The position numbers and the translations under genes were made by a program. A DNA stretch of 64,000 nt from Bdellovibrio sp. BCCA (lineage in GTDB: Bacteria > Bdellovibrionota > Bdellovibrionia > Bdellovibrionales > Bdellovibrionaceae): contig NZ_JBBNAC010000001.1 of the NCBI RefSeq assembly GCF_037996825.1, positions 3,658,001 through 3,722,000 of the forward strand. The letters run 5' to 3'. A model generated the notes under the pieces. It saw only the letters and a list, made by a program, of their open reading frames with translations, did not search any database and had not been told where the DNA came from. This document shows, in pieces, positions 2,650 to 14,468 of the stretch (position 1 is the first letter of the stretch; the number at the start of each line of letters is the position of its first letter).

Positions 2650-3762
2650 ATGAGCATGAATCACATCATTGGTCAGCATTTCTTCATTGGCGTTTCTGGA
2701 CACGCTCTGACTGCTGACGAAAAGAAATTCATCGTAGATAACAATATTGGCGGTGTTTGCCTTTTTGGACGAAATGTCGCTGACCCAAAACAAGTTCACG
2801 ATCTGTGCGCGGAAATTCAATCTCTTCGTCACAAACAAGCTGACAAAGCTCCTCTTTTTATCGGGATTGATATGGAAGGTGGACGTGTTCATCGCTTGAA
2901 ACCTCCTTTCACTGTGTGGCCTCCGCTTCGCAAGCTCGGAGATCTCGATGCACCGACGGTTTCTTTCCATTTTGCGAATCGAATGGGACAAGAATTAAAA
3001 GCTGTTGGCATTAATTTGGATTTTGCTCCCTGCGTGGACGTGTTTACAAATCCCGCAAACACGGTGATCGGAGATCGTTCGATCAGTTCCGATCCAGAGA
3101 TGGTCGCGAAACATGCTTCTGCGTTGGTGCGCGGTTATATCAAATCAGACATCATCACATGTGCAAAACACTTCCCTGGTCATGGCAACACCATCATTGA
3201 TAGCCACGAAGATCTTCCAGTTGAAAACGTCGATATGGCTCGTCTTGAATCTTGTGAGTTGATTCCATTCAAAAAAACATTCAAGGCTCGTGTCGACATG
3301 GTCATGACTTCGCATATTAAATTCCCGAAGATCGATCCCGAGTGGCCTGTAACTTTGTCTGAAACTTTCATACAAAAAATTATCCGTGATGAGTGCCGCT
3401 ACCGTGGTTTGATCATCACTGATGACCTAGGAATGAAAGCGATGACAAAACATTATGGAATTGAAGAGGTTCCAGTGCGCGCATTGAAAGCCGGCGTTGA
3501 TTTGCTTTTGTATTGCAATGACCCTGAGGTTCCACCTCAGGCTTTCGAAGCCGTTCTTGAAGCGACAGCACAAGGTTCTTTGCAAAAAACAGATTTAGAA
3601 GCGAGTTACCGTCGCATCATGGATCTTAAAAAAGCAAAGATCACTCAACCCGATCCACTTCCCATGTCTGAAGTCGTCAACATTGTGGGACATCCTGACC
3701 ATTTAAAAATCGCCTCTGCGATCGCCAACGGCCAAATCCCCGACGGCCTTCTTCCAGAGTAA
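2650..3762 (+). CDS. nagZ: beta-N-acetylhexosaminidase (NagZ family, GH3)
   Basis: 370 residues with the whole GH3 catalytic domain and no signal peptide, as expected for the cytoplasmic NagZ that removes N-acetylglucosamine from anhydro-muropeptides in cell-wall recycling. Visible motifs are GIDMEGGRVHRL (72-83), the signature KHFPGHG (173-179), the acid/base Asp-His pair in DSH (184-186), and TDDLGMKA, where D258 is the expected nucleophile. In a predator it could also process prey wall fragments, but that is inference. The gene lies 2 bases after a secreted protein and is followed by a strong hairpin shared with the convergent operon. Two Met codons lie close together (M1, M3), so the exact start is uncertain by two codons. 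Confidence 0.93.
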   Translation: MSMNHIIGQHFFIGVSGHALTADEKKFIVDNNIGGVCLFGRNVADPKQVHDLCAEIQSLRHKQADKAPLFIGIDMEGGRVHRLKPPFTVWPPLRKLGDLDAPTVSFHFANRMGQELKAVGINLDFAPCVDVFTNPANTVIGDRSISSDPEMVAKHASALVRGYIKSDIITCAKHFPGHGNTIIDSHEDLPVENVDMARLESCELIPFKKTFKARVDMVMTSHIKFPKIDPEWPVTLSETFIQKIIRDECRYRGLIITDDLGMKAMTKHYGIEEVPVRALKAGVDLLLYCNDPEVPPQAFEAVLEATAQGSLQKTDLEASYRRIMDLKKAKITQPDPLPMSEVVNIVGHPDHLKIASAIANGQIPDGLLPE

Positions 3763-3765
3763 AAA

Positions 3766-3789
3766 AAGGCCTGGTATATACCAGGCCTT
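3766..3789 (-). terminator. palindromic rho-independent terminator between nagZ and the Rhs operon
   Basis: A perfect 24-base palindrome with arm AAGGCCTGGTAT is flanked on the plus-strand left by seven A residues (3761-3767). Read on the minus strand, the hairpin is therefore followed by a T-tract, which fits termination of the four-gene minus-strand operon. On the plus strand the trailing sequence is only weakly T-rich, so termination of nagZ is less certain. Confidence 0.8.
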
Positions 3790-3804
3790 CTGAAGTCTTT
3801 ACTT

Positions 3805-6264
3805 TTAGTACTTAAATTCGTTTCCAAGAAATGATGCCGGCCTCATTACTTCAATCGGAGTGTATGAGTCTTGCCATGTACCATCTCCAATAGTTCCCAG
3901 AGTTCCGCTTCCCCAACAATAACCCTTACCCTCCGCAACAGTACAGTGGCCATAATGATCAGCATCTATACTTGTAGCTCCCACTATTCCGCTCATCAAT
4001 GTAGGAGTAGTTACATTGAATGTAACTCCATCGCTTGGCAGTGCAACATATCCCCAGTAATAGGCAGAGCCATTCTTAACTGCACTTACGGAGTTCGTAT
4101 AAGCATCGATATCTGTCACGCCTGCGCCCATCCCGATGGGAGTTACTGGAGAAGAAGCGGAACCGACTTGATTTGGGTCTCCCAACTGTCCACTACTATT
4201 TAAACCTACACATTTCGCAGCCCCATTATTTAATATACAAGTCGAATTCATACTGGCCACAATTTTCGTAACATTGGTACCCAGCTGGGTTCCCTGAATC
4301 GGTGTCAAACTCGCAGTCGTATTTCCATTTCCTAAGGTATAAAACGTATTTTTTCCCCAGCAGTACGGTGTACCGTTATCATTTATGGCACAACTGTGTG
4401 TATGTCCTACCGATACTTGTTTTGGATTTGTAAATGTGACTAATGTAGGTGAACTTCTGTTAACTTTGTCACCAACACCTAACTGGCCTTCATTATTGCT
4501 ACCCCAACAAAAAAGTAGTTTTGTTGGGGGATTTACTAGGGTGTTGTTGGTTATCGCACATGCCGCATTGAAACCTACATTGACAGCCAAAACATTGTTT
4601 AACGCAACTTTTGTAGGAATTGGATAAACGCCTCCAGTAAATCCCTGGCCTATTTGGCCATTGTTGTTATTTCCCCAACAATAGAGCTCGCCCGCTTTAA
4701 CCGCACAGGCAAATCCTACTCCGACACTAACCGATTGCACACCTGCAGACATTCCTCGAACTGCAGTCGGTACATTTCTGTTATCTAGATCACCAAGACC
4801 TAATCTGCCAAAAGTATTACTTCCCCAGCAGTAAAGAGCTCCACCTCTAATGCCACAAGCCGCTTTCTCGCCCACCGATATGCTTTCCCAAACAACGGGA
4901 GTGACGCCATTATCAAGCAATGTGACTCTGACGGGCATATATTGGCCGGTAGCAATACCGCCACCGGAAACATTGTGTGAAATTAAATGAACAGCATTAC
5001 CGTCCTCTAAATGATCATCAACCGTATTAACGCTAATTTTTTGAGGCACATTCCAGTTACTAGTTGTAAAGGTCAATGTAGCCGTACTAGCCCAGGGGGC
5101 ACCGCCAGAACTTGATAATGTAATGTCCGTTGTTGGAGAAGTTGCCACTACTGTTACATTTGAAGTCGGTTGAGACACCAAAGATACATTGTAAGAGCTT
5201 TTACTGCCCTCATAAATTTCCAAGTTGTCTTTACTTAACACTATACTCGGCTGCTCAACACTTATCGAAAGAGCCGTTTCACCGATAAATATTTTTAAGC
5301 TGTCTAATACGTCCGAAAACGCTGTGACAATCATGCTGAGGTCATCAATCTCACTCTGATAATATGCTATAAGGTTAGGATCAGTCGCCTTATTCTTCGC
5401 ATCAACCATTTCCGATTTTCGAACAAATCCAGCAGAAACAGCATCACTTAGAGACTTTCCATCTCTTTTGTTTCGAATTGTTAAGCTTGCTTTAACCTCA
5501 TGAGTACCAAGAGTCAGTTTCGTCGATGGAACAGAAATTAAAAAGGACGATGAAGAATTTGGTGTAGATGTCAAAAGATTGCCGTCCACCTTAGAAGTCA
5601 GAAGCAACTCCATTTCCTTAATGTCATAGCCAAGGGCAGAGGCAACAATATTTGCATTCACGCTTGCACTTTGGCCCAATGAATAGGTGTTGTTTAGATG
5701 ATCCGCCGTCAACAAAAGAGAAGATACTATCTTTTTTCTTGCCAGGGCTGCTGTGGCGGAAACATTTATCTCTTTAGTTTCAACTAACGTTCTATGTGAA
5801 GAAAGCTGAGATAGCAAAGATTGCTTCAGTTGATTATTGTTGTCTATTGCCTGTTGCAAATTAATTTTTTTTGCGGGATTTGTTTCCTCGACAAGTAAGC
5901 TGCTAAGCTTATTGTTTTCTTGATCTAAACCAGCAATGCTAGACAAAATATCTTTTGCAACCTGCTTTTTCTGAATATAAGCGTCAACATGAAAAACCGT
6001 TTGTCCAGCTGATGTAATTGCTGGAGTAACCGCAGCTGCCTCAAAGTCAGCGAACTTCGTTAATTTGATCGCAGCGCCTCCCCATGTTCCAGTCATATAT
6101 ATTTCAGAGTCAGGATCAGTAGGGCTGGTTTTTATGGATGCCATCAAGACGACCTTTTCTCCGACTTGATATTGAGATTTATTTGTGCGCAATTCAATAA
6201 ACTGTGGATTAACCGCAAAGGCTTGCGAAACAAATAGGAAGATAATTAAGAAGATTGATTTCAT
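3805..6264 (-). CDS. exported RCC1 beta-propeller protein with Calx-beta-like domain
   Basis: 819 residues. The Sec signal peptide is 1-17 (FLIIFLFVSQAFA). Residues 20-170 form a beta-rich domain interrupted by a helical, Gln/Asn-rich hairpin (about 100-160), then a further Ig-like stretch (about 190-285), a Calx-beta/cadherin-like segment (about 340-452), and a C-terminal propeller (about 459-805). The propeller has seven blades, each with a C-W-G or similar core (LYCWGSN, LYCWGNN, LFCWGSN, PYCWGKN, KCVGLN, YYWGYV, YCWGSG), and most blades have a second Cys, so disulfides are likely. RCC1 propellers are protein-interaction platforms, and export points to the surface or periplasm. It overlaps the upstream gene by 4 bases (ATGA). 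It is the last gene of the Rhs operon. The partner is unknown. Confidence 0.85.
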   Translation of the reverse strand: MKSIFLIIFLFVSQAFAVNPQFIELRTNKSQYQVGEKVVLMASIKTSPTDPDSEIYMTGTWGGAAIKLTKFADFEAAAVTPAITSAGQTVFHVDAYIQKKQVAKDILSSIAGLDQENNKLSSLLVEETNPAKKINLQQAIDNNNQLKQSLLSQLSSHRTLVETKEINVSATAALARKKIVSSLLLTADHLNNTYSLGQSASVNANIVASALGYDIKEMELLLTSKVDGNLLTSTPNSSSSFLISVPSTKLTLGTHEVKASLTIRNKRDGKSLSDAVSAGFVRKSEMVDAKNKATDPNLIAYYQSEIDDLSMIVTAFSDVLDSLKIFIGETALSISVEQPSIVLSKDNLEIYEGSKSSYNVSLVSQPTSNVTVVATSPTTDITLSSSGGAPWASTATLTFTTSNWNVPQKISVNTVDDHLEDGNAVHLISHNVSGGGIATGQYMPVRVTLLDNGVTPVVWESISVGEKAACGIRGGALYCWGSNTFGRLGLGDLDNRNVPTAVRGMSAGVQSVSVGVGFACAVKAGELYCWGNNNNGQIGQGFTGGVYPIPTKVALNNVLAVNVGFNAACAITNNTLVNPPTKLLFCWGSNNEGQLGVGDKVNRSSPTLVTFTNPKQVSVGHTHSCAINDNGTPYCWGKNTFYTLGNGNTTASLTPIQGTQLGTNVTKIVASMNSTCILNNGAAKCVGLNSSGQLGDPNQVGSASSPVTPIGMGAGVTDIDAYTNSVSAVKNGSAYYWGYVALPSDGVTFNVTTPTLMSGIVGATSIDADHYGHCTVAEGKGYCWGSGTLGTIGDGTWQDSYTPIEVMRPASFLGNEFKY

Positions 6265-8543
6265 TTTGCACTCCCAAAAAATGATTTCTTATTTTTCAGA
6301 TTCAATACACTGGGAACAACGTTAGCTTTTAGGACATACTTGAATGGCGTTGTATAACCGGAAACATTAATTTGAACTTCATCCAGCAAAGTTCCCGCCG
6401 TAGACGATGATCTTACGTACGATGTAACATCCATATTTGTCTGCAAATAGTCAATAGAGCCAATCGCACATGGTGTAGACTCTCTTACGCTCCAACTAAA
6501 ATTATTTGTAGTTCCCTCAACGATACTTGAGACCTCATACAATCCATAAGGCAATACTGTTCCAAAAAAATCGTTGAGAAAGTCTGGATAAAGCACAGGG
6601 CCGTAACTTCCTACCACAATATCTCCAAAATTTAATTCTTTAGAATAGCTGTTTGGAGCTGGTAGTTTTGCCGTTTTAAGAATAAATACTTTTGATGACT
6701 CCCCCGGTATCGCATCCCACTCAAAAATCGCCTGCGCAGTCTCAGCGCCATTGAAATTTCCCGGACTCACATTTATTGGAACTTCAACTTCGCAGCCAGA
6801 ACAAATATGCAATCCAGATGGTGGAATGCTCATCGAAAAAATTCCGGAAGTTCCTCCCATATGAGTAATTTGGGGAGGCGAAGTAATAGTATAACTCGTG
6901 TTGGAAGTATTACGAATTCTAATAATTGTAGCGCTTGGAGTATCATATGTGCCATATAGCCCGATAGGGCTAATACCTGCTAAAACATCTAAATTTTGAT
7001 CTCCTGACCATTGCAGAGAGTTGATTTTACCAAAGAATGAAAGGCTTGAAGGAACCGCTGGAACAATACTAACGTGTACAATTTTTCTTGAAGTAACAGT
7101 TCCTTTCAAAATGATGGGAATGTCGACTCTCAATTCTGAATTTCCAGAATAAGCTACGGAGAATTGAAAACCCATACAAGAGCGTGCATTAATACTCCCT
7201 TGACGGCTTCCATTAACTAGAGAAAAACCCGAACCTAAAATTTGATATGAGGCTTCGGTCGGCAAGTTGTTACAAGCTCTGAACATTCCGATATAAAACT
7301 CTCCTGAAAGAGCCGAACCTGCAATATTCAAGGGCGTAATTGTTAAAGCGTCGATGGCTCCAACCGTAATCACGGTTAAAGAAGGAACACTCTCTAATGT
7401 ACCATTAGAGACAACCAAAGAAATCACATAACTTCCCGAAGTTTGTGCCAAGAACGTTGGATTCACAACACTAGAATCATTAAAAACTCCGTCCAAAGCT
7501 GTGGCTCCCTCAGGTTTTGAAACGACTGACCAACTATAGGTAAGATTCTTGCCACGTTCATCGTATGATTTAGAGCCATCAAGCTGCGCAGAAACTCCTG
7601 ACTGCACATTTTGAGGAAAGCCCGCAAAAGCTACAGGATGGATGTCACCCGACGGCCCCGAAAAGTTTCCGTCTAATGCATAAAACGCATTTTTTAAAAT
7701 CGTACTAGCAGTCTCTCCATTTATTGTTTTCGTAACAACGATATCCTGCATACCATCCGGAATACTTGGAGCAATAAAACTGATTTGATTGTAAGAACGG
7801 GTCAGTTGGGATTCGTCCAATGTAATTCCAGCTATCGTTAATGAATCGACATCCTCTAGGTTTCCTCCGTTTACTTTTATTTCATATCCTCCTGCAATAG
7901 AACCGAATCTTGGTTCACACTCATTTATACGCGGATAAACTGATCCCGAACTTGGAACAACGGTAAGCTTCTCTGTCTTATTTGCGACAGGTCTTTTTAA
8001 AGAATTTAATGTAGTTTCCAAATCTATTTTTTGAGTGTTCTTTTGATCAAGCGTTGCTTGGAGTTGATTTTTTTTATCAATATCTGTTTCACGAGCAATA
8101 TCGTTTGTAAGTTTATCAATCTCCCGATTTAGTACAATCAATAGGTCTCTTGCCTGCTGACTAGCATTGAAGTCTTCAATGAATGCCGAAACTTCGATCG
8201 TATGTTCGCCATTCGAGTGGAATATCACTGGAGCGGAAATCCATAATGTCTCAGAACGATTATTAATTCTAACTTCTCTTCCGTCTATCTTTAGGCTAAC
8301 GATCGATCTAACAGTTTTATTTCCTTCAAAATCAGTAGACAGCTCGACAAACACCGTCACCTTTTCTCCCTGTTCGGGTTGCGCAGGCGAAAAGCGAACA
8401 CTAGCAATTGAATATGATACTGACTGATTAAGTTTTTTTAAAAACTTTGAAAATTGTATTGGATTAGAAGTTTGCAAATTCGGGCTTCGTGCCATTGCAA
8501 AGCTTCCCCACAAGAGTATCCCCATGGTAATTAACCTAATCAT
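6261..8543 (-). CDS. exported multidomain IPT/TIG and PKD protein
   Basis: 760 residues. The start is fixed by a strong AAGGAGGAG just before the ATG and by a signal peptide (1-18, ending AMA). Domains in order: an Ig-like fold (about 42-122) split by a charged helical hairpin (about 126-185, rich in Asp, Lys and Gln), an IPT/TIG domain (about 203-290, with GGYEIKVNGGNL), a PKD domain (about 302-395, with LDGSKSYDERG and YSWSV), and further beta-sandwich repeats to the end, including an Asn/Cys-containing anchor-type module (about 590-700). The N-terminal domain resembles that of the next gene. No enzyme motif is visible; the architecture suggests a surface or adhesion role. It begins 23 bases after the putative immunity gene and overlaps the RCC1 gene by 4 bases. 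Confidence 0.83.
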   Translation of the reverse strand: MIRLITMGILLWGSFAMARSPNLQTSNPIQFSKFLKKLNQSVSYSIASVRFSPAQPEQGEKVTVFVELSTDFEGNKTVRSIVSLKIDGREVRINNRSETLWISAPVIFHSNGEHTIEVSAFIEDFNASQQARDLLIVLNREIDKLTNDIARETDIDKKNQLQATLDQKNTQKIDLETTLNSLKRPVANKTEKLTVVPSSGSVYPRINECEPRFGSIAGGYEIKVNGGNLEDVDSLTIAGITLDESQLTRSYNQISFIAPSIPDGMQDIVVTKTINGETASTILKNAFYALDGNFSGPSGDIHPVAFAGFPQNVQSGVSAQLDGSKSYDERGKNLTYSWSVVSKPEGATALDGVFNDSSVVNPTFLAQTSGSYVISLVVSNGTLESVPSLTVITVGAIDALTITPLNIAGSALSGEFYIGMFRACNNLPTEASYQILGSGFSLVNGSRQGSINARSCMGFQFSVAYSGNSELRVDIPIILKGTVTSRKIVHVSIVPAVPSSLSFFGKINSLQWSGDQNLDVLAGISPIGLYGTYDTPSATIIRIRNTSNTSYTITSPPQITHMGGTSGIFSMSIPPSGLHICSGCEVEVPINVSPGNFNGAETAQAIFEWDAIPGESSKVFILKTAKLPAPNSYSKELNFGDIVVGSYGPVLYPDFLNDFFGTVLPYGLYEVSSIVEGTTNNFSWSVRESTPCAIGSIDYLQTNMDVTSYVRSSSTAGTLLDEVQINVSGYTTPFKYVLKANVVPSVLNLKNKKSFFGSAK

Positions 8544-8566
8544 TTCTCCTCCTTGGATACGATTAT

Positions 8567-8938
8567 TTATTTTTTAAACTTCAAACTTTTCCAAAAATTA
8601 TAAGTCCGACGAAAAAGCCTATTTAAAATCGGACGAGGAGATTTATCCGGATGCTTCCGATAATACTCTTTTCGATCGATTGCATCTCTCAAGGAGTTTA
8701 TAAAAGCATCGACTATATCCTCTTCATTTTTAAAGTCATAAATTTCAAACCTTCTATCGTACCACTCCGATGAAAAATCGGAATCACCGGTATCATAGAT
8801 CCAAAACCTATAGTCAGAAATTTTACCAGTGATATATGGTTTATTATTATCATTCGATAAATATCGGATTTCGATTTCAAGTTCAGTAGACAAATCTTCT
8901 AATCGTTTCACGTATTTTTTTTGAATTTCATTTTTCAT
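8567..8938 (-). CDS. probable immunity protein for the upstream Rhs toxin
   Basis: 123 residues, cytoplasmic (no signal peptide), with a basic C-terminus (PILNRLFRRTYNFWKSLKFKK region). The ATG overlaps the Rhs stop codon as ATGA (8935-8938), which indicates translational coupling. A small unrelated gene directly behind the variable end of an Rhs protein is the standard position of a cognate immunity gene in polymorphic toxin systems. The sequence is rich in aromatic residues and Asp/Glu in the middle (YRFWIYDTGDSDF). I recognise no named immunity family. The function is inferred from position only. Confidence 0.65.
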   Translation of the reverse strand: MKNEIQKKYVKRLEDLSTELEIEIRYLSNDNNKPYITGKISDYRFWIYDTGDSDFSSEWYDRRFEIYDFKNEEDIVDAFINSLRDAIDRKEYYRKHPDKSPRPILNRLFRRTYNFWKSLKFKK

Positions 8939-11900
8939 AGAGGTCCCAAGTCAAGGAAGTCTATATGTCCATTCTTAATACCAGGCACTCCTTTTCGTTC
9001 AAGCCACTCAATCACTTGGCCGGATGCCCTGAATACTTTATTGCCACCATTTCTGCCTAAACCGATTCTTAAGTATCTATTGGAATTTGCGAGCTTACAT
9101 ACAGGTCCCGCAGCTGCTGCACTTCCCACGGCGGCAGGAACACCTATCAATTCATCTAGCGCCGCGCCTGGCGTGTCCAGATCAGTGGAATATAGAACTC
9201 CCAACGCGACACCAACAATTACTGGAATTGCAAATTTGCCATTTGGATCAATGAAATTTACCGGATCTGAAAAGGAATAACCATAAAGATTTGTTTCAAC
9301 TCCTGGAACTTTTCCAACTGTGTTTAAATATCCGTACAAATTTACTCCACCACCGTTGAATAAAATTGGATCTTTACTCGTCCACCGCCCAATTTCAGGA
9401 TCATAATCACGTGCGCCAAATTTTAATAAGTTAGTTTTTTCGTCATAAATTCCACCTGCGAATCCATATGGTTGGAATCCAACGTTGGTATTTGACAAGA
9501 TTTTACCCCATTCATTGTATTCAATTTGTTGTACGGGAACGCCACTTTCGGCATTTACCACAAGACGAGGCGATCCAAGATGATCTTTAAGAATTCTATA
9601 ATATTTATCGTGAACCCGCATAAAGTCAGGAGAACTCGAGTGAGAAGAATAAAAAAACTCTTTCACTTGCTTAGTCTTTTCATTTATTTGCATTGCGATT
9701 TGGTTTTGTGACTGAAAAATATTTCGATATATTTTCTCATCGTTTAAAAAACCAAAAATTCTACGCCCCGCCGAATCAATTTTATACTGAACTTTTTCTC
9801 CAATCCCTAAATGTATTTCATTTAATTCTCCGAATTGGTCATAATTATAAATGTCTTTGGATAACACACCTATTTGTTTTGAAATTAAATCTCCGTTGGA
9901 ATTATAAGAAAATGAAGTGGATCTAAAACTAAGAATTCTATCTTGATCATCAAACGTCGAAAAAAAAGAAATCCCTCCGATAACTCCTGATATTCGATTT
10001 CCATTGGCATCATAAACATATTTACTGTATGTAGAATTATTTTTCTTAACTTCAATGAGTCGGCCCGAACTGTCGTAAAGGTATTCGAATTCTGTTGTTC
10101 GACCTAAAATTGTCTCAATTTTCCCAATAATTCTTCCAGTTAAATCTCTCCTTAGTATATATGAGTATAAATCCTGAGAAGGGCCTGCCTGTGAGTTGAA
10201 CGTAGAAGTGTACGATTCTAAGTCTCCATACTGATCATACGTTCTAACATCAGCAATGCCTCGCAATTGTGTCGATTTCAACCTTGCCGAATCGGAATAA
10301 TAGGCAATGCTCATGGGGCCTATACTCTTTATTTTTCCGATATTGTTATATGCGTAATTGACCTTGGACGATGTCAACAATGTATCTGCATTTACCACGC
10401 GCCACAAAAGACGCAATTCATTATCGCGCTCAAACAATATACTTGAAAATCCTGAAGTATCGGCTTGTCTTTCGGAACGAACTATTTCTCCAGCATAAGA
10501 ATATTCGGTTTTTATTCCGCTAATTGCACGTACTGATTTTATTCGTTCTGAATTAGGAAAATAAGTGTATTCTTCTTTCGCAAAGCCGGACTGGAAATTT
10601 GAAAGCAAGCCTGAAATTGAATCATAGTTATAAATAAGAGCTTTTCCGTCGGGCCGCTGAATGCTGGTCACCTGCTTATCCAAATTGTATGTATAGCGTA
10701 TACTAGAAGAATTCCCTCCTATTTGCGGAGCATTATATTGCGCAACTAAGTCCATTATATTAATAGTAAACTCATGCCGCGATCTTCCTGGAGGAGTTAT
10801 GCTAACGAGATTTCCATTTACGTCGTAGTCATAACTTGTCTCTCTCCCATCTGAAAAAACCTGTTTTTTTACTCTACCTACTAAGTCATACTGAAATGCC
10901 GTCTCTTCATTTCTAGCATTTTTGATTTTCTCGAGGAAACCATTTGAGCTGTAAGTAAAATTCGTAGCTTTTTTCGCGCCTTGCTTCAACTCAGATAAGC
11001 GACCACGCAAATCGTAAGAATATGTCCAGGGAATGTCGTTAGCATATTGAGATTTTATTGGCCTCTCATACGAATCTAAAGTTGTTGAAGTAATAACACC
11101 GTTAAAGTTTTTAAAAGAAAGAATTTTGGAGGAGGAATTATAAACATTCTCTTGAGTCATTCTAAAGTTATCTACAACTTTAGTTGATATTGTTTTCAAT
11201 GTGGAAAAAGAAAATGGATTCGAGAGCGACGAGGGCGTTACTTCATAAGTGAAGGTCGTTAGATTACTTTTGCGACCAATAAAGTCAGTTTCTCTTGCCA
11301 AAACTTTTTTTATACTCCCAAATCTGATGTCATCTGAGACCTCTCTGTTTTGGCTTCCAGTATAACTTTGAAAAAAAGTGCCACCATTTGAATATGATTT
11401 CTGTAAATCTGATTCACCCGACGGCTGGGTTTCAATACTTGAGTAGCTGTTATCGACCTCATTTACATTGAAATTATATGTCCAAGTTCTACCCATCTTT
11501 GATTTTTTGGTAATCTGGTTACCCGACCATTCCAAATTTAAGGAAAAATCCCAAGAAGGACCTGCACTATCCCTATCAGAGGCCAGTCGTCCCGATTCCG
11601 TATACGTCATTTCAGAGAACTGACCATTTGGTCTATAAAATCGTTTCATCAGTTCTGTATTTGAATAGTAAGTGATTTTATATTTCTCATTATTAGGATT
11701 TGTGACGGTCGCTATCAAGCCATTAGCTCCAGTAGTAACCTGAGTCTCTTGCCCATATGGTGATTGAATAGTTGTCAGTCGTCCGGAAGAGTCTCGAAGA
11801 AATTTTGTTTCATTTCCAAATGCATCTGTAATTTTTGATAGCTTCGAAGAAGAATCATACGAAAATTTGTACTTTTCATATCCAGTTAGTTCGCTTCGTG

Positions 11901-12672
11901 TTTTTAAGTGCCTACCAGAACCATCGAAAACGTAGACCTCGCCATTGCTAACCACAGAGTCATTTCCATCTCCATAGTTTGCATAACTCTTCTCGACAGA
12001 GTTTCCGTTTCCAGTGAACAGTCTCTGGTTCACGCGGTCATAGTAGTGAACTATATCGACAGTCCAAGCTTCGGGATTAAAAGATGGACCTCGATGAATT
12101 TTTGGGTATGAGGTAATAAAATCTAAGGCGTACCCGGAAGAGTAATAGAGATTAAAATTTGTACCCACTATTGGAATTAACTCTCCAACAGTTAGATTAT
12201 CTACGTTTATAATTGAACCATTTGACTCACGTGTGCACTCGCCAATTGGTTCGTTATATGCCAAACCCGTGCCCTCGAAGGAAATATCTGTGGTGCTAGA
12301 ATGCGGAACTCCGTCTTCGTCTACCCCAGTTAACGTGGCTTTATATACAGCCTGATAAGTTTGAGCAGCTGTTGGTTTAAATCTTGCGATAAAGGTACAT
12401 TTTTGGCCTGGATTTAAACTCCTTCCTGCGCAGTTATTACTTATTATACTAATTGAAGAAGATGTCGAGATTGCGGACCACGCGATACTAAATGTAGCCG
12501 TACCAGTATTTTGAATAAATCCTTCAAGTTCTGACGAGTTGTACAAATAGGTGACGGGAAATCGATATTCGTTATCAGCGAGATTTGATGAGATCAATGC
12601 ATCTTTTTTAGAAGATGCAAAGCAAGATAAAGTTGTAACCAACAATAGGAAAGAATAAGGAATGTATTTCAT
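8935..12672 (-). CDS. Rhs/YD-repeat protein with variable C-terminal domain
   Basis: 1245 residues from the ATG at 12670-12672, chosen because GTGGAG lies 6-9 bases upstream and the product then begins with a signal peptide (MKYIPYSFLLLVTTLSCFA). An in-frame ATG 36 codons upstream would bury that peptide. After a choice-of-anchor/ASPM-like beta domain (about 35-140, ending FEGTG) come many YD repeats (forms such as YDSSGRLIEV and YDANGNRI) that build the Rhs shell. The core box is RDYDPEIGRWTSKDPI, then NLYGY, then FIDPNG. The last 100 residues differ from the core: a hydrophobic stretch, a Gly/Ala linker, then a polar end (NRYLRIGLGRN to HIDFLDLGPL) that would be the toxin. There is no PAAR or VgrG domain, so Sec export rather than a T6SS is suggested. 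By eye the gene is more AT-rich than its neighbours. Confidence 0.88.
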   Translation of the reverse strand: MKYIPYSFLLLVTTLSCFASSKKDALISSNLADNEYRFPVTYLYNSSELEGFIQNTGTATFSIAWSAISTSSSISIISNNCAGRSLNPGQKCTFIARFKPTAAQTYQAVYKATLTGVDEDGVPHSSTTDISFEGTGLAYNEPIGECTRESNGSIINVDNLTVGELIPIVGTNFNLYYSSGYALDFITSYPKIHRGPSFNPEAWTVDIVHYYDRVNQRLFTGNGNSVEKSYANYGDGNDSVVSNGEVYVFDGSGRHLKTRSELTGYEKYKFSYDSSSKLSKITDAFGNETKFLRDSSGRLTTIQSPYGQETQVTTGANGLIATVTNPNNEKYKITYYSNTELMKRFYRPNGQFSEMTYTESGRLASDRDSAGPSWDFSLNLEWSGNQITKKSKMGRTWTYNFNVNEVDNSYSSIETQPSGESDLQKSYSNGGTFFQSYTGSQNREVSDDIRFGSIKKVLARETDFIGRKSNLTTFTYEVTPSSLSNPFSFSTLKTISTKVVDNFRMTQENVYNSSSKILSFKNFNGVITSTTLDSYERPIKSQYANDIPWTYSYDLRGRLSELKQGAKKATNFTYSSNGFLEKIKNARNEETAFQYDLVGRVKKQVFSDGRETSYDYDVNGNLVSITPPGRSRHEFTINIMDLVAQYNAPQIGGNSSSIRYTYNLDKQVTSIQRPDGKALIYNYDSISGLLSNFQSGFAKEEYTYFPNSERIKSVRAISGIKTEYSYAGEIVRSERQADTSGFSSILFERDNELRLLWRVVNADTLLTSSKVNYAYNNIGKIKSIGPMSIAYYSDSARLKSTQLRGIADVRTYDQYGDLESYTSTFNSQAGPSQDLYSYILRRDLTGRIIGKIETILGRTTEFEYLYDSSGRLIEVKKNNSTYSKYVYDANGNRISGVIGGISFFSTFDDQDRILSFRSTSFSYNSNGDLISKQIGVLSKDIYNYDQFGELNEIHLGIGEKVQYKIDSAGRRIFGFLNDEKIYRNIFQSQNQIAMQINEKTKQVKEFFYSSHSSSPDFMRVHDKYYRILKDHLGSPRLVVNAESGVPVQQIEYNEWGKILSNTNVGFQPYGFAGGIYDEKTNLLKFGARDYDPEIGRWTSKDPILFNGGGVNLYGYLNTVGKVPGVETNLYGYSFSDPVNFIDPNGKFAIPVIVGVALGVLYSTDLDTPGAALDELIGVPAAVGSAAAAGPVCKLANSNRYLRIGLGRNGGNKVFRASGQVIEWLERKGVPGIKNGHIDFLDLGPL

Positions 12673-12944
12673 CACAAACTCCACGAGTGCTTCCTGTTTC
12701 TCGAAATGACAAGATGCCCATAAGAAATTTATAAAAATATTCTGTTTATAGAACGATAAGAAAAGTATGAAGAAACGCAATCGCTATTTTTTAATGGCTT
12801 TTTTAAAATGATGAAAACATATGCAGATTATGAGCCATATCAAATAAATTGGAGTTTACAGTTTTTCTTTTGTTTAATTTTTGTTGATGCACTTCATAAA
12901 CATTCTTTTATTTTATCGGAAAATGGCTCGACTTAAGTATTGAA
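12673..12944. other. AT-rich intergenic region upstream of the Rhs operon
   Basis: No gene is seen here. The sequence is clearly AT-rich by eye and separates the divergent Rhs operon and TonB-like gene. On the minus strand there are TATAAA-like hexamers around 12728-12745 that could be -10 elements for the Rhs operon. No convincing -35 partner was found, so no promoter is called. Confidence 0.4.
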
Positions 12945-13092
12945 CATCATCATGTCTGGATCTCCAGTGATGAGGACTGACAATCGCGCGAACAGGTCTG
13001 TAGTTATTTCAGACCCTCCTAAACCCATCTGCAACTGAGGGCCACCTAGAGTGGCCCGGGAATTGATAATGCATCTCCTGATATCACAGGAG
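12945..13092 (+). promoter_or_regulatory. structured leader with Shine-Dalgarno inside a hairpin
   Basis: Four hairpins follow one another before the TonB-like gene. (1) CATCA/TGATG (12948-12952 with 12968-12972) continues past a 3-base bulge into CTGG/CCAG. (2) GGTCTG/CAGACC lies at 12995-13015. (3) GGGCCAC/GTGGCCC lies at 13039-13057 with loop CTAGA. (4) CTCCTG/CAGGAG lies at 13075-13092. The last arm contains the AGGAG that serves the ATG at 13098, so folding would hide the ribosome-binding site. None is followed by a T-tract. I match it to no known riboswitch class. Candidate cis-regulatory RNA. Confidence 0.5.
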
Positions 13093-13097
13093 TACCT

Positions 13098-14468
13098 ATG
13101 GGTTTTAATATGGACGACGACAAGTCAAATAATAAGGATCAGCTGAGTCTTTTTGACTTTCAGATACCCAAGGCAGACTTCGTTCCTGCGAAAAAAGAAG
13201 AAGGTTCCGCGGCCATTGATTTTGATATTTGGATGATGGCTCATCGCGAACCAGAGCAAAGCAAAACATCTCGCTTTATGACGGTCTCTGCCGTTGTTCA
13301 TGCCGCAGCGATTTTGTTGGTCGCTATGATGACCGTGCCTCTTGTTGAACAAGCAAAAACTGAAACCATCACGATTGAAATTGAAGATGTTAAACCGCCA
13401 GTAAGAATGGCGCGTGGTGCACCTGTACCGCCAACTCAAGGTGGAACTCCGGCAAAAGAAATAACTCCTGTTGTTGAAAAACTGGAGGACGCGGGCAGCC
13501 CTAACGACGTTATTGTTGCAAAACCAAAGGCCACTTCCAAAGCAGTAGCAAAGGCGAAAGCCGCGACTCCAAAAGCGAAAGCTTCTGCAAAAGTCGCTGC
13601 CCATGCCACTCCCAAGGCAGGCGTTGCCAAAACGGCGGGAAGAAGTATTGCCCCTAAAGCAACGATGAAAGCTGTTCCAATGACTATCGATGATATCGAT
13701 GCTCCGGAACTCGATGAAGGCGAAGTTGCCAATGCCAAAGTCGCCTCTCAAATGAACGAGGACTTCAACGAAGATTTTGAAAACATCGATAACTCAAGAA
13801 GAGCGGCTCTTGAAAAAGAAAAGAAATCCATGGATGCCATGGCCGCCGCTCTCGCAGCAGAACAAGATGAAAATCTGAACGCCCTTGACGAGGCAAATAA
13901 AGAAGAGGCTTCTCGTTTAGCGGCAGCACAGGATTCTTTACGTAAGAAAAATGCCAACGCCATTGCCTCGGCTTTGGCTTCTGAAAAAGCCGCCGCCGCT
14001 GCTGCAGCTCGTGAAGCCGCAGCTCGCGAAGCCGCTGCAAAACGCGCAGGACTTGGTGGAAACGGAAATGGTCTTGGCACTAAAGAAGGTTCTGGCGCAG
14101 GCAACACGGGTTCTCAAGGCCCAGGGACTCAGGTCGCAGGAATGCCGCAAGGAGTTCGCAGCTTGGATCAACTTCGTCAAATGCCTGGAAATCCACGTCC
14201 ACAGTATGATCGCGAAGAGCGTCGTCGTGGTGACCAAGGTAAGGTGGCTTTCGTTGCTTACATCAGCAAAGAAGGTTACCCAAGTCAGTTCAGAATGATT
14301 TCATCGACTGGATTTAGAAACTTGGATTCAAAAACTTTGGCCGCTCTAAAAAAATGGCGCTTCTATCCTGGACAAGAAGGATGGGTTGAGCTTCCATTCC
14401 GTTGGGACTTAAAAGGTGGTATTCAAGAAGACGGCGGATTGTTACGTCGAAGTGTAAGCCGTCGCTAG
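13098..14468 (+). CDS. TonB/AgmX-like energy-transducing envelope protein
   Basis: 456 residues in the layout of TonB-type proteins: a cytoplasmic N-terminus of about 58 residues, one transmembrane helix (about 60-82, VSAVVHAAAILLVAMMTV), a Pro/Lys/Ala-rich periplasmic region, a long Ala/Glu-rich coiled-coil segment (about 225-325), a Gly-rich linker, and a C-terminal domain (about 370-445) with the TonB-like pattern of a polar strand, then LDSKTLAALKKWRFYPG. The unusually long cytoplasmic part is more like the AgmX/GltJ-type proteins of gliding and predatory bacteria than E. coli TonB. No exbB/exbD partner is nearby. The AGGAG start signal lies in a hairpin of the leader. Confidence 0.75.
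   Translation: MGFNMDDDKSNNKDQLSLFDFQIPKADFVPAKKEEGSAAIDFDIWMMAHREPEQSKTSRFMTVSAVVHAAAILLVAMMTVPLVEQAKTETITIEIEDVKPPVRMARGAPVPPTQGGTPAKEITPVVEKLEDAGSPNDVIVAKPKATSKAVAKAKAATPKAKASAKVAAHATPKAGVAKTAGRSIAPKATMKAVPMTIDDIDAPELDEGEVANAKVASQMNEDFNEDFENIDNSRRAALEKEKKSMDAMAAALAAEQDENLNALDEANKEEASRLAAAQDSLRKKNANAIASALASEKAAAAAAAREAAAREAAAKRAGLGGNGNGLGTKEGSGAGNTGSQGPGTQVAGMPQGVRSLDQLRQMPGNPRPQYDREERRRGDQGKVAFVAYISKEGYPSQFRMISSTGFRNLDSKTLAALKKWRFYPGQEGWVELPFRWDLKGGIQEDGGLLRRSVSRR

Follow-up and report, generated by a model that had tools for sequence, protein, structure and literature searches.

How Rhs and teneurin-like toxins that leave the cell by the Sec pathway arrive at their target cells is an open question, for which conserved exported partner proteins would give named candidates. 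The question is raised by a stretch of 64,000 nucleotides from Bdellovibrio sp. BCCA (contig NZ_JBBNAC010000001.1, positions 3,658,001 to 3,722,000; hereafter the window), where an Rhs gene stands together with a small gene and two genes for large exported proteins. A previous sequence-only reading of the window had described four minus-strand genes separated by 4-base overlaps or a 23-base gap, closed by a palindromic terminator and with signal peptides on three of the four products. The gene arrangement and the terminator were confirmed, the Rhs, IPT/PKD and RCC1 identities were recovered by Pfam, and the signal peptides were found as signal-peptide-like starts by hydropathy. The features of the set are:

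8935-12672, minus strand: Rhs gene, 1245 aa; signal-peptide-like start, choice-of-anchor-D-like N-terminus, YD shell, Rhs core and variable tip.
8567-8938, minus strand: small gene, 123 aa, without signal peptide; predicted immunity protein.
6261-8543, minus strand: A-type partner (IPT/PKD gene), 760 aa; signal-peptide-like start, module, TIG/IPT, PKD and further beta domains.
3805-6264, minus strand: B-type partner (RCC1 gene), 819 aa; signal-peptide-like start, two modules, beta region and RCC1 propeller.
3764-3791, minus strand: intrinsic terminator at the end of the operon, formed by a 12-pair hairpin with T-tract; part of the island described below.
12673-12976, minus strand: island upstream region, presumed promoter region on the basis of the island boundary.

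The Rhs and small genes, as well as the IPT/PKD and RCC1 genes, share ATGA overlaps (8935-8938 and 6261-6264), and the gap between the small gene and the IPT/PKD gene (8544-8566) contains AGGAGGAG, a strong ribosome-binding sequence. The hairpin at 3791-3764 was the sole strong terminator in our hairpin scan, where the number of terminator-like hairpins was near chance (10 observed, 6.6 expected). Promoter-like matches upstream of the Rhs gene were not above chance. From the gene spacing it follows that the four genes make up one operon-like unit, predicted to be co-transcribed. The Pfam scan of the encoded proteins gave RHS repeats with a YD-shell, PKD with TIG, and RCC1; the Rfam scan of the window gave tRNA only, and PADLOC returned nothing useful.

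The Rhs protein carries the RHS/YD repeats of Rhs polymorphic toxins (PF05593, E=3.9e-30; PF25023, E=3.1e-32), followed by a core and a tip:

9238-9519, minus strand: Rhs-associated core, aa 1052-1145; TIGR03696 E=8e-19; ends in PVNFIDPNG.
8938-9237, minus strand: Rhs C-terminal tip, predicted toxin, 100 aa long, behind the core motif.

The core motif PVNFIDPNG (PxxxxDPxG) is intact at position aa 1137, and the tips behind it differ at every locus compared, which is the combination of core and variable tip found in polymorphic toxins. The window tip had no match to a known toxin family in Pfam and none in plasmids, while the tip of one other locus weakly resembles YkuD. A homologue of the window tip was found as an orphan in genome G017 (42% over 43 aa, score above all 2000 shuffles), downstream of an Rhs gene array and followed by a gene distantly related to the small one (L145, about 1600-2216). 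Aligned globally, the gene behind this orphan tip and the 123-aa protein scored 27, against a shuffle maximum of 17 (n=2000); in local alignment 21 of 2000 shuffles reached their score. As the similarity is weak, the immunity reading leans mainly on position, and by its place behind the tip the 123-aa protein is probably the immunity protein. This part of the island is therefore ordinary, with the small gene in the usual immunity slot. A match to the small gene in G026 (E=0.009) was dropped, as no tip adjoins it. Elsewhere, one Rhs gene (L044:2697-6878) has two core signatures with tips in succession, a mark of tip exchange, and in G010 (L046:12538-13742) IS3-like transposase genes lie at the 3' end of an Rhs gene and remove its tip.

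The two partners are less ordinary, and they share a module of about 150 residues. It opens every one of the 24 A-, B- and X-type proteins from eight Bdellovibrio loci, and short A-type proteins (183-186 aa; L048, L049) consist of almost nothing else. In the window it is found as follows:

7953-8414, minus strand: module of the A-type partner, aa 44-197, by alignment and HMM; hairpin 125-151/155-181 in a low-confidence model.
5752-6201, minus strand: module copy 1 of the B-type partner, aa 22-171; AF2 pLDDT mostly 75-95; strands and helices 100-126/130-156.
5254-5721, minus strand: module copy 2 of the B-type partner, aa 182-337; HMM E=7e-12; same fold in the model.
3844-4881, minus strand: RCC1 beta-propeller region of the B-type partner, about aa 462-807; PF25390 E=1.8e-44, PF00415 E=1.5e-38.

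In the AlphaFold model, the B-type N-terminus folds into two tandem Ig-like sandwiches, each with a pair of 27-residue helices inserted before its last strand. The same helical hairpin appears in the model of the A-type protein, which is poor overall (pLDDT 47), hence we used its module region only. For the 24 module proteins Pfam gave scattered, mostly coiled-coil-type matches and no consistent match to one domain model; sequence searches of the PDB likewise matched chiefly coiled coils. For the B-type N-terminus Foldseek returned only generic Ig tandem matches, and fold comparison of a single module copy found Ig-like sandwiches and GlgE domain N, the latter among the better matches (Z 9.5, rmsd 2.5, 94 residues), a likeness that is to be read as a resemblance of predicted fold, not of function. 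As judged from sequence and model, the module appears to be a so far undescribed domain, predicted to fold as a beta sandwich into which a helical hairpin is inserted.

Further we wanted to know whether the partners keep company with Rhs genes. Among 141 genomes of the order, full module matches were found in eight clusters only, in seven Bdellovibrio genomes (7 of 24 in the genus), and in these seven genomes every module match falls inside the clusters; matches in G046, G051 and G069 were partial and isolated and were left out of the cluster count. An Rhs gene adjoins the partners in 7 of the 8 clusters. In G013 and G009 it is cut by contig ends, and its end lies at the start of the partner contig. 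The cluster of G023 (L048:6179-14010) has no Rhs gene nearby; it has a 1053-aa module protein followed by a small exported protein. In the last large gene of this cluster a PEGA domain and a D,D-peptidase-like motif (HxxGxxxD, HxH) are joined to the module, the motif seen by eye only; Pfam, NCBIfam and PDB gave no match at this C-terminus. In L045 the Rhs gene is divergent from the partners, so the single transcript is not universal, and its B protein is without RCC1.

A tree of 27 Rhs proteins placed the 7 cluster proteins together with 2 solo proteins (G014 and G019, which have Rhs without partners) and split them by a 100/99 branch from the other 18, all solo. None of 500 label shuffles was as clustered on this tree as observed. 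Scanning named genomes with the IPT/PKD protein alone found nothing; the same scan with the family alignment found B. bacteriovorus strain kdesi and eleven loci, which match mostly around the PKD region. No relative was found in viral contigs.

Beyond the order, a search of the phylum (369 genomes) found full modules in three distant families. In G354 an Rhs gene adjoins a module-PKD-LamG gene, and in G303 module genes are present with no full Rhs gene seen adjoining. Two loci of G184 have the genes in the order A, B, Rhs, and here the module is part of the Rhs protein, along with PKD, transthyretin-like (TTR-like) and NHL-like domains and RHS repeats. At L174 the module-bearing Rhs protein matches TEN_NHL at E=3.2e-6, just under the cut-off. 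The teneurin-like Rhs genes of this kind lie at L174:4785-11477 (minus strand) and L175:8627-13531 (plus strand), the latter apparently frameshifted or split. As the module is fused to Rhs in one lineage and encoded by a separate neighbour in another, the products may be expected to work together, for which this is strong, though indirect, evidence. The sequence-only reading had taken the two exported proteins as partners of the Rhs protein, and their co-occurrence in other genomes speaks for it: confinement to clusters, a single Rhs clade, and recurrence and fusion in distant families argue strongly, if indirectly, that A and B belong with the Rhs protein.

The operon also takes up most of one further feature:

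3762-12976: low-GC island, 9,215 bp; exactly the operon with about 300 bp upstream and the terminator.

One empty site (L166) is continuous in blastn across window positions 3761/12977, and a second (L167) is nearly continuous across the same point, in agreement with the first. The two sites thus define 3762-12976 as a precise 9,215-bp insertion. The sequence-only reading had overlooked this insertion, as well as the module common to both partners and the probable immunity role of the small gene. GC content within it is 0.36-0.45, mostly about 0.40 or less, versus 0.42-0.49 in the flanks, and nothing in the empty-site sequences corresponds to the terminator at 3764-3791. Both flanking genes (2650-3762 and 13098-14468) were found in 24 of 24 genus members searched, and in many Bdellovibrio genomes they adjoin, about 125 bp apart. 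No integrase gene was found within the island. Judged from these junctions, the four-gene island is mobile among genomes. The site, behind a nagZ-like gene, is an insertion hot spot; it is vacant in many genomes, and in G006, G009 and G012 (L160-L162) it holds an unrelated 7-kb cassette with nuclease, ligase and helicase-like genes.

The sequence-only reading had suggested a different delivery or surface system, and as far as difference from the T6SS and from Tc toxins is concerned this held up; the delivery or surface role itself stays a proposal, to which we return below. Delivery of the window Rhs protein by a T6SS seems unlikely, because no VipA/TssB sheath gene was found in the host genome (4.01 Mb, two contigs), with a positive E. 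coli control. T6SS Rhs effectors have a PAAR or VgrG-linked N-terminus; the window protein gave no PAAR match and has a signal-peptide-like start instead. In Tc (ABC) toxins, with their TcB-TcC cocoon, an Rhs shell is used with a beta-propeller, as in the window set. They differ in that the RCC1 propeller of the island is a separate gene and that the window Rhs protein has neither SpvB nor an in-chain beta-propeller by Pfam at E up to 0.1.

Closer likenesses are found among toxins exported by Sec. WapA is a wall protein of Gram-positive bacteria. WapA-type toxins, placed in the T2SS/Sec class by a survey of polymorphic toxins that describes Sec-dependent Rhs toxins as well as beta-propellers as repeats in toxins (PMC3482391), resemble the window Rhs protein in signal peptide, Rhs repeats, variable tip and adjacent small gene; the island adds two dedicated exported partners built on a shared undescribed module. 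The closest recent description is that of bacterial teneurin-like proteins (TLPs), which are exported YD-shell toxins with PxxxxDPxG, a polymorphic C-terminal domain and a downstream immunity gene (PMC13018210); the window Rhs protein is predicted to be like them in this, with its small gene as the putative immunity gene. No delivery machinery was apparent for them in that paper of 2026, and searching its text turned up neither RCC1 nor a gene cluster. The window Rhs protein has the YD-shell and no TEN_NHL match, and as NHL was not found it is not a TLP, with its superfold of FN-plug, NHL and YD-shell in a single chain, by the definition of PMC13018210; the adhesion-type domains of the island are instead on separate exported partners. 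By their domains, the G184 proteins do look like TLPs, in a phylum that is not among the six named in that survey. In Bdellovibrio itself, the hit locus Bd0108/Bd0109 (PMC4267844, PMC3818213) also pairs an exported Rhs protein with an exported partner gene, but Bd0109 has no core and tip and Bd0108 is a disordered protein of 101 aa. A short Rhs protein by Tad-pilus-like genes in the host genome (L053:5509-7215, G000:C1:112 kb) is a likely Bd0109 orthologue. We found no paper linking Rhs with RCC1 in Bdellovibrio.

On this basis we consider it fairly probable that the product of the island is a polymorphic Rhs toxin, exported by Sec, together with dedicated partners by which it is kept at the surface and target cells are bound. 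The Rhs, A- and B-type proteins would be exported by Sec, A and B separately, and the Rhs shell would enclose its own tip, to be released by self-cleavage at the PxxxxDPxG motif, while the 123-aa protein would neutralise the tip in the cytoplasm. Outside the inner membrane A and B would assemble with Rhs via their modules, and the hairpins in these might come together in a helical bundle. As binding heads, the RCC1 propeller and the PKD/IPT domains would anchor the complex at the surface and attach it to the target cell. The sequence-only reading had thought of prey interaction; rivals or kin are equally possible as targets, and competing Bdellovibrio and other bacteria come into question as well as prey.

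The same gene set could be read in other ways. The partners might be dedicated periplasmic chaperones or outer-membrane carriers of Rhs that make no contact with a target. Short A-type proteins that are nearly all module are what one would expect of a chaperone or adaptor, and periplasmic chaperones often have Ig-like folds; however, RCC1, PKD, IPT and LamG fused to the module resemble externally displayed binding domains, and we regard this reading as rather unlikely. It also seems unlikely, and we would give it little weight, that A and B are independent surface adhesins for attachment to prey or in biofilms, merely co-located with an ordinary Rhs toxin-immunity pair. The mobility of the island, its insertion at a hot spot, the partners without Rhs in G023 and the clade Rhs proteins without partners in G014 and G019 would all agree with it. 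It fits poorly with the finding that all strong module genes of the genus lie in clusters, 7 of the 8 having an Rhs gene from a single clade, that these clusters keep their gene set at differing chromosomal places, and that G184 has Rhs chains with the module fused into them.

A signalling or host-interaction factor in place of a toxin, with the partners as a predation surface structure, has its precedent in Bd0109, an exported Bdellovibrio Rhs protein without toxin tip that is linked to pili and growth switching (PMC4267844), and the host genome holds its likely orthologue. In the window Rhs protein, unlike Bd0109, the core cleavage motif is present and a tip of 100 aa follows it; the tips differ among loci, one of them weakly YkuD-like, and a small gene stands behind the tip, which makes such a role very improbable.

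Returning to the surface-bound toxin, we speculate further, and with less than even confidence, that A and B make up the apparatus for delivery or targeting that has been missing for Sec-exported Rhs and teneurin-like toxins of the Bdellovibrionota, an island-borne surface complex on the hairpin-Ig module with exchangeable heads (RCC1, PKD, LamG) and tips. The tie between partners and Rhs in synteny, co-phylogeny and gene fusion makes the delivery question testable in a genetically tractable predator. The analysis also brings a domain not described before, and it puts the Bdellovibrionota among the phyla with teneurin-like Rhs proteins, here ones that bear the module.

Proteins with RCC1 repeats are also encoded elsewhere in the host genome, on the second, 209-kb contig (G000:C2, L054) and at C1:1092, 3144 and 3277 kb. 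The RCC1 paralogues were set aside as relatives of the B-type partner, as their similarity is confined to the RCC1 region. Bdellovibrio RCC1 proteins carry annotation as RTX toxins (PMC5941755).
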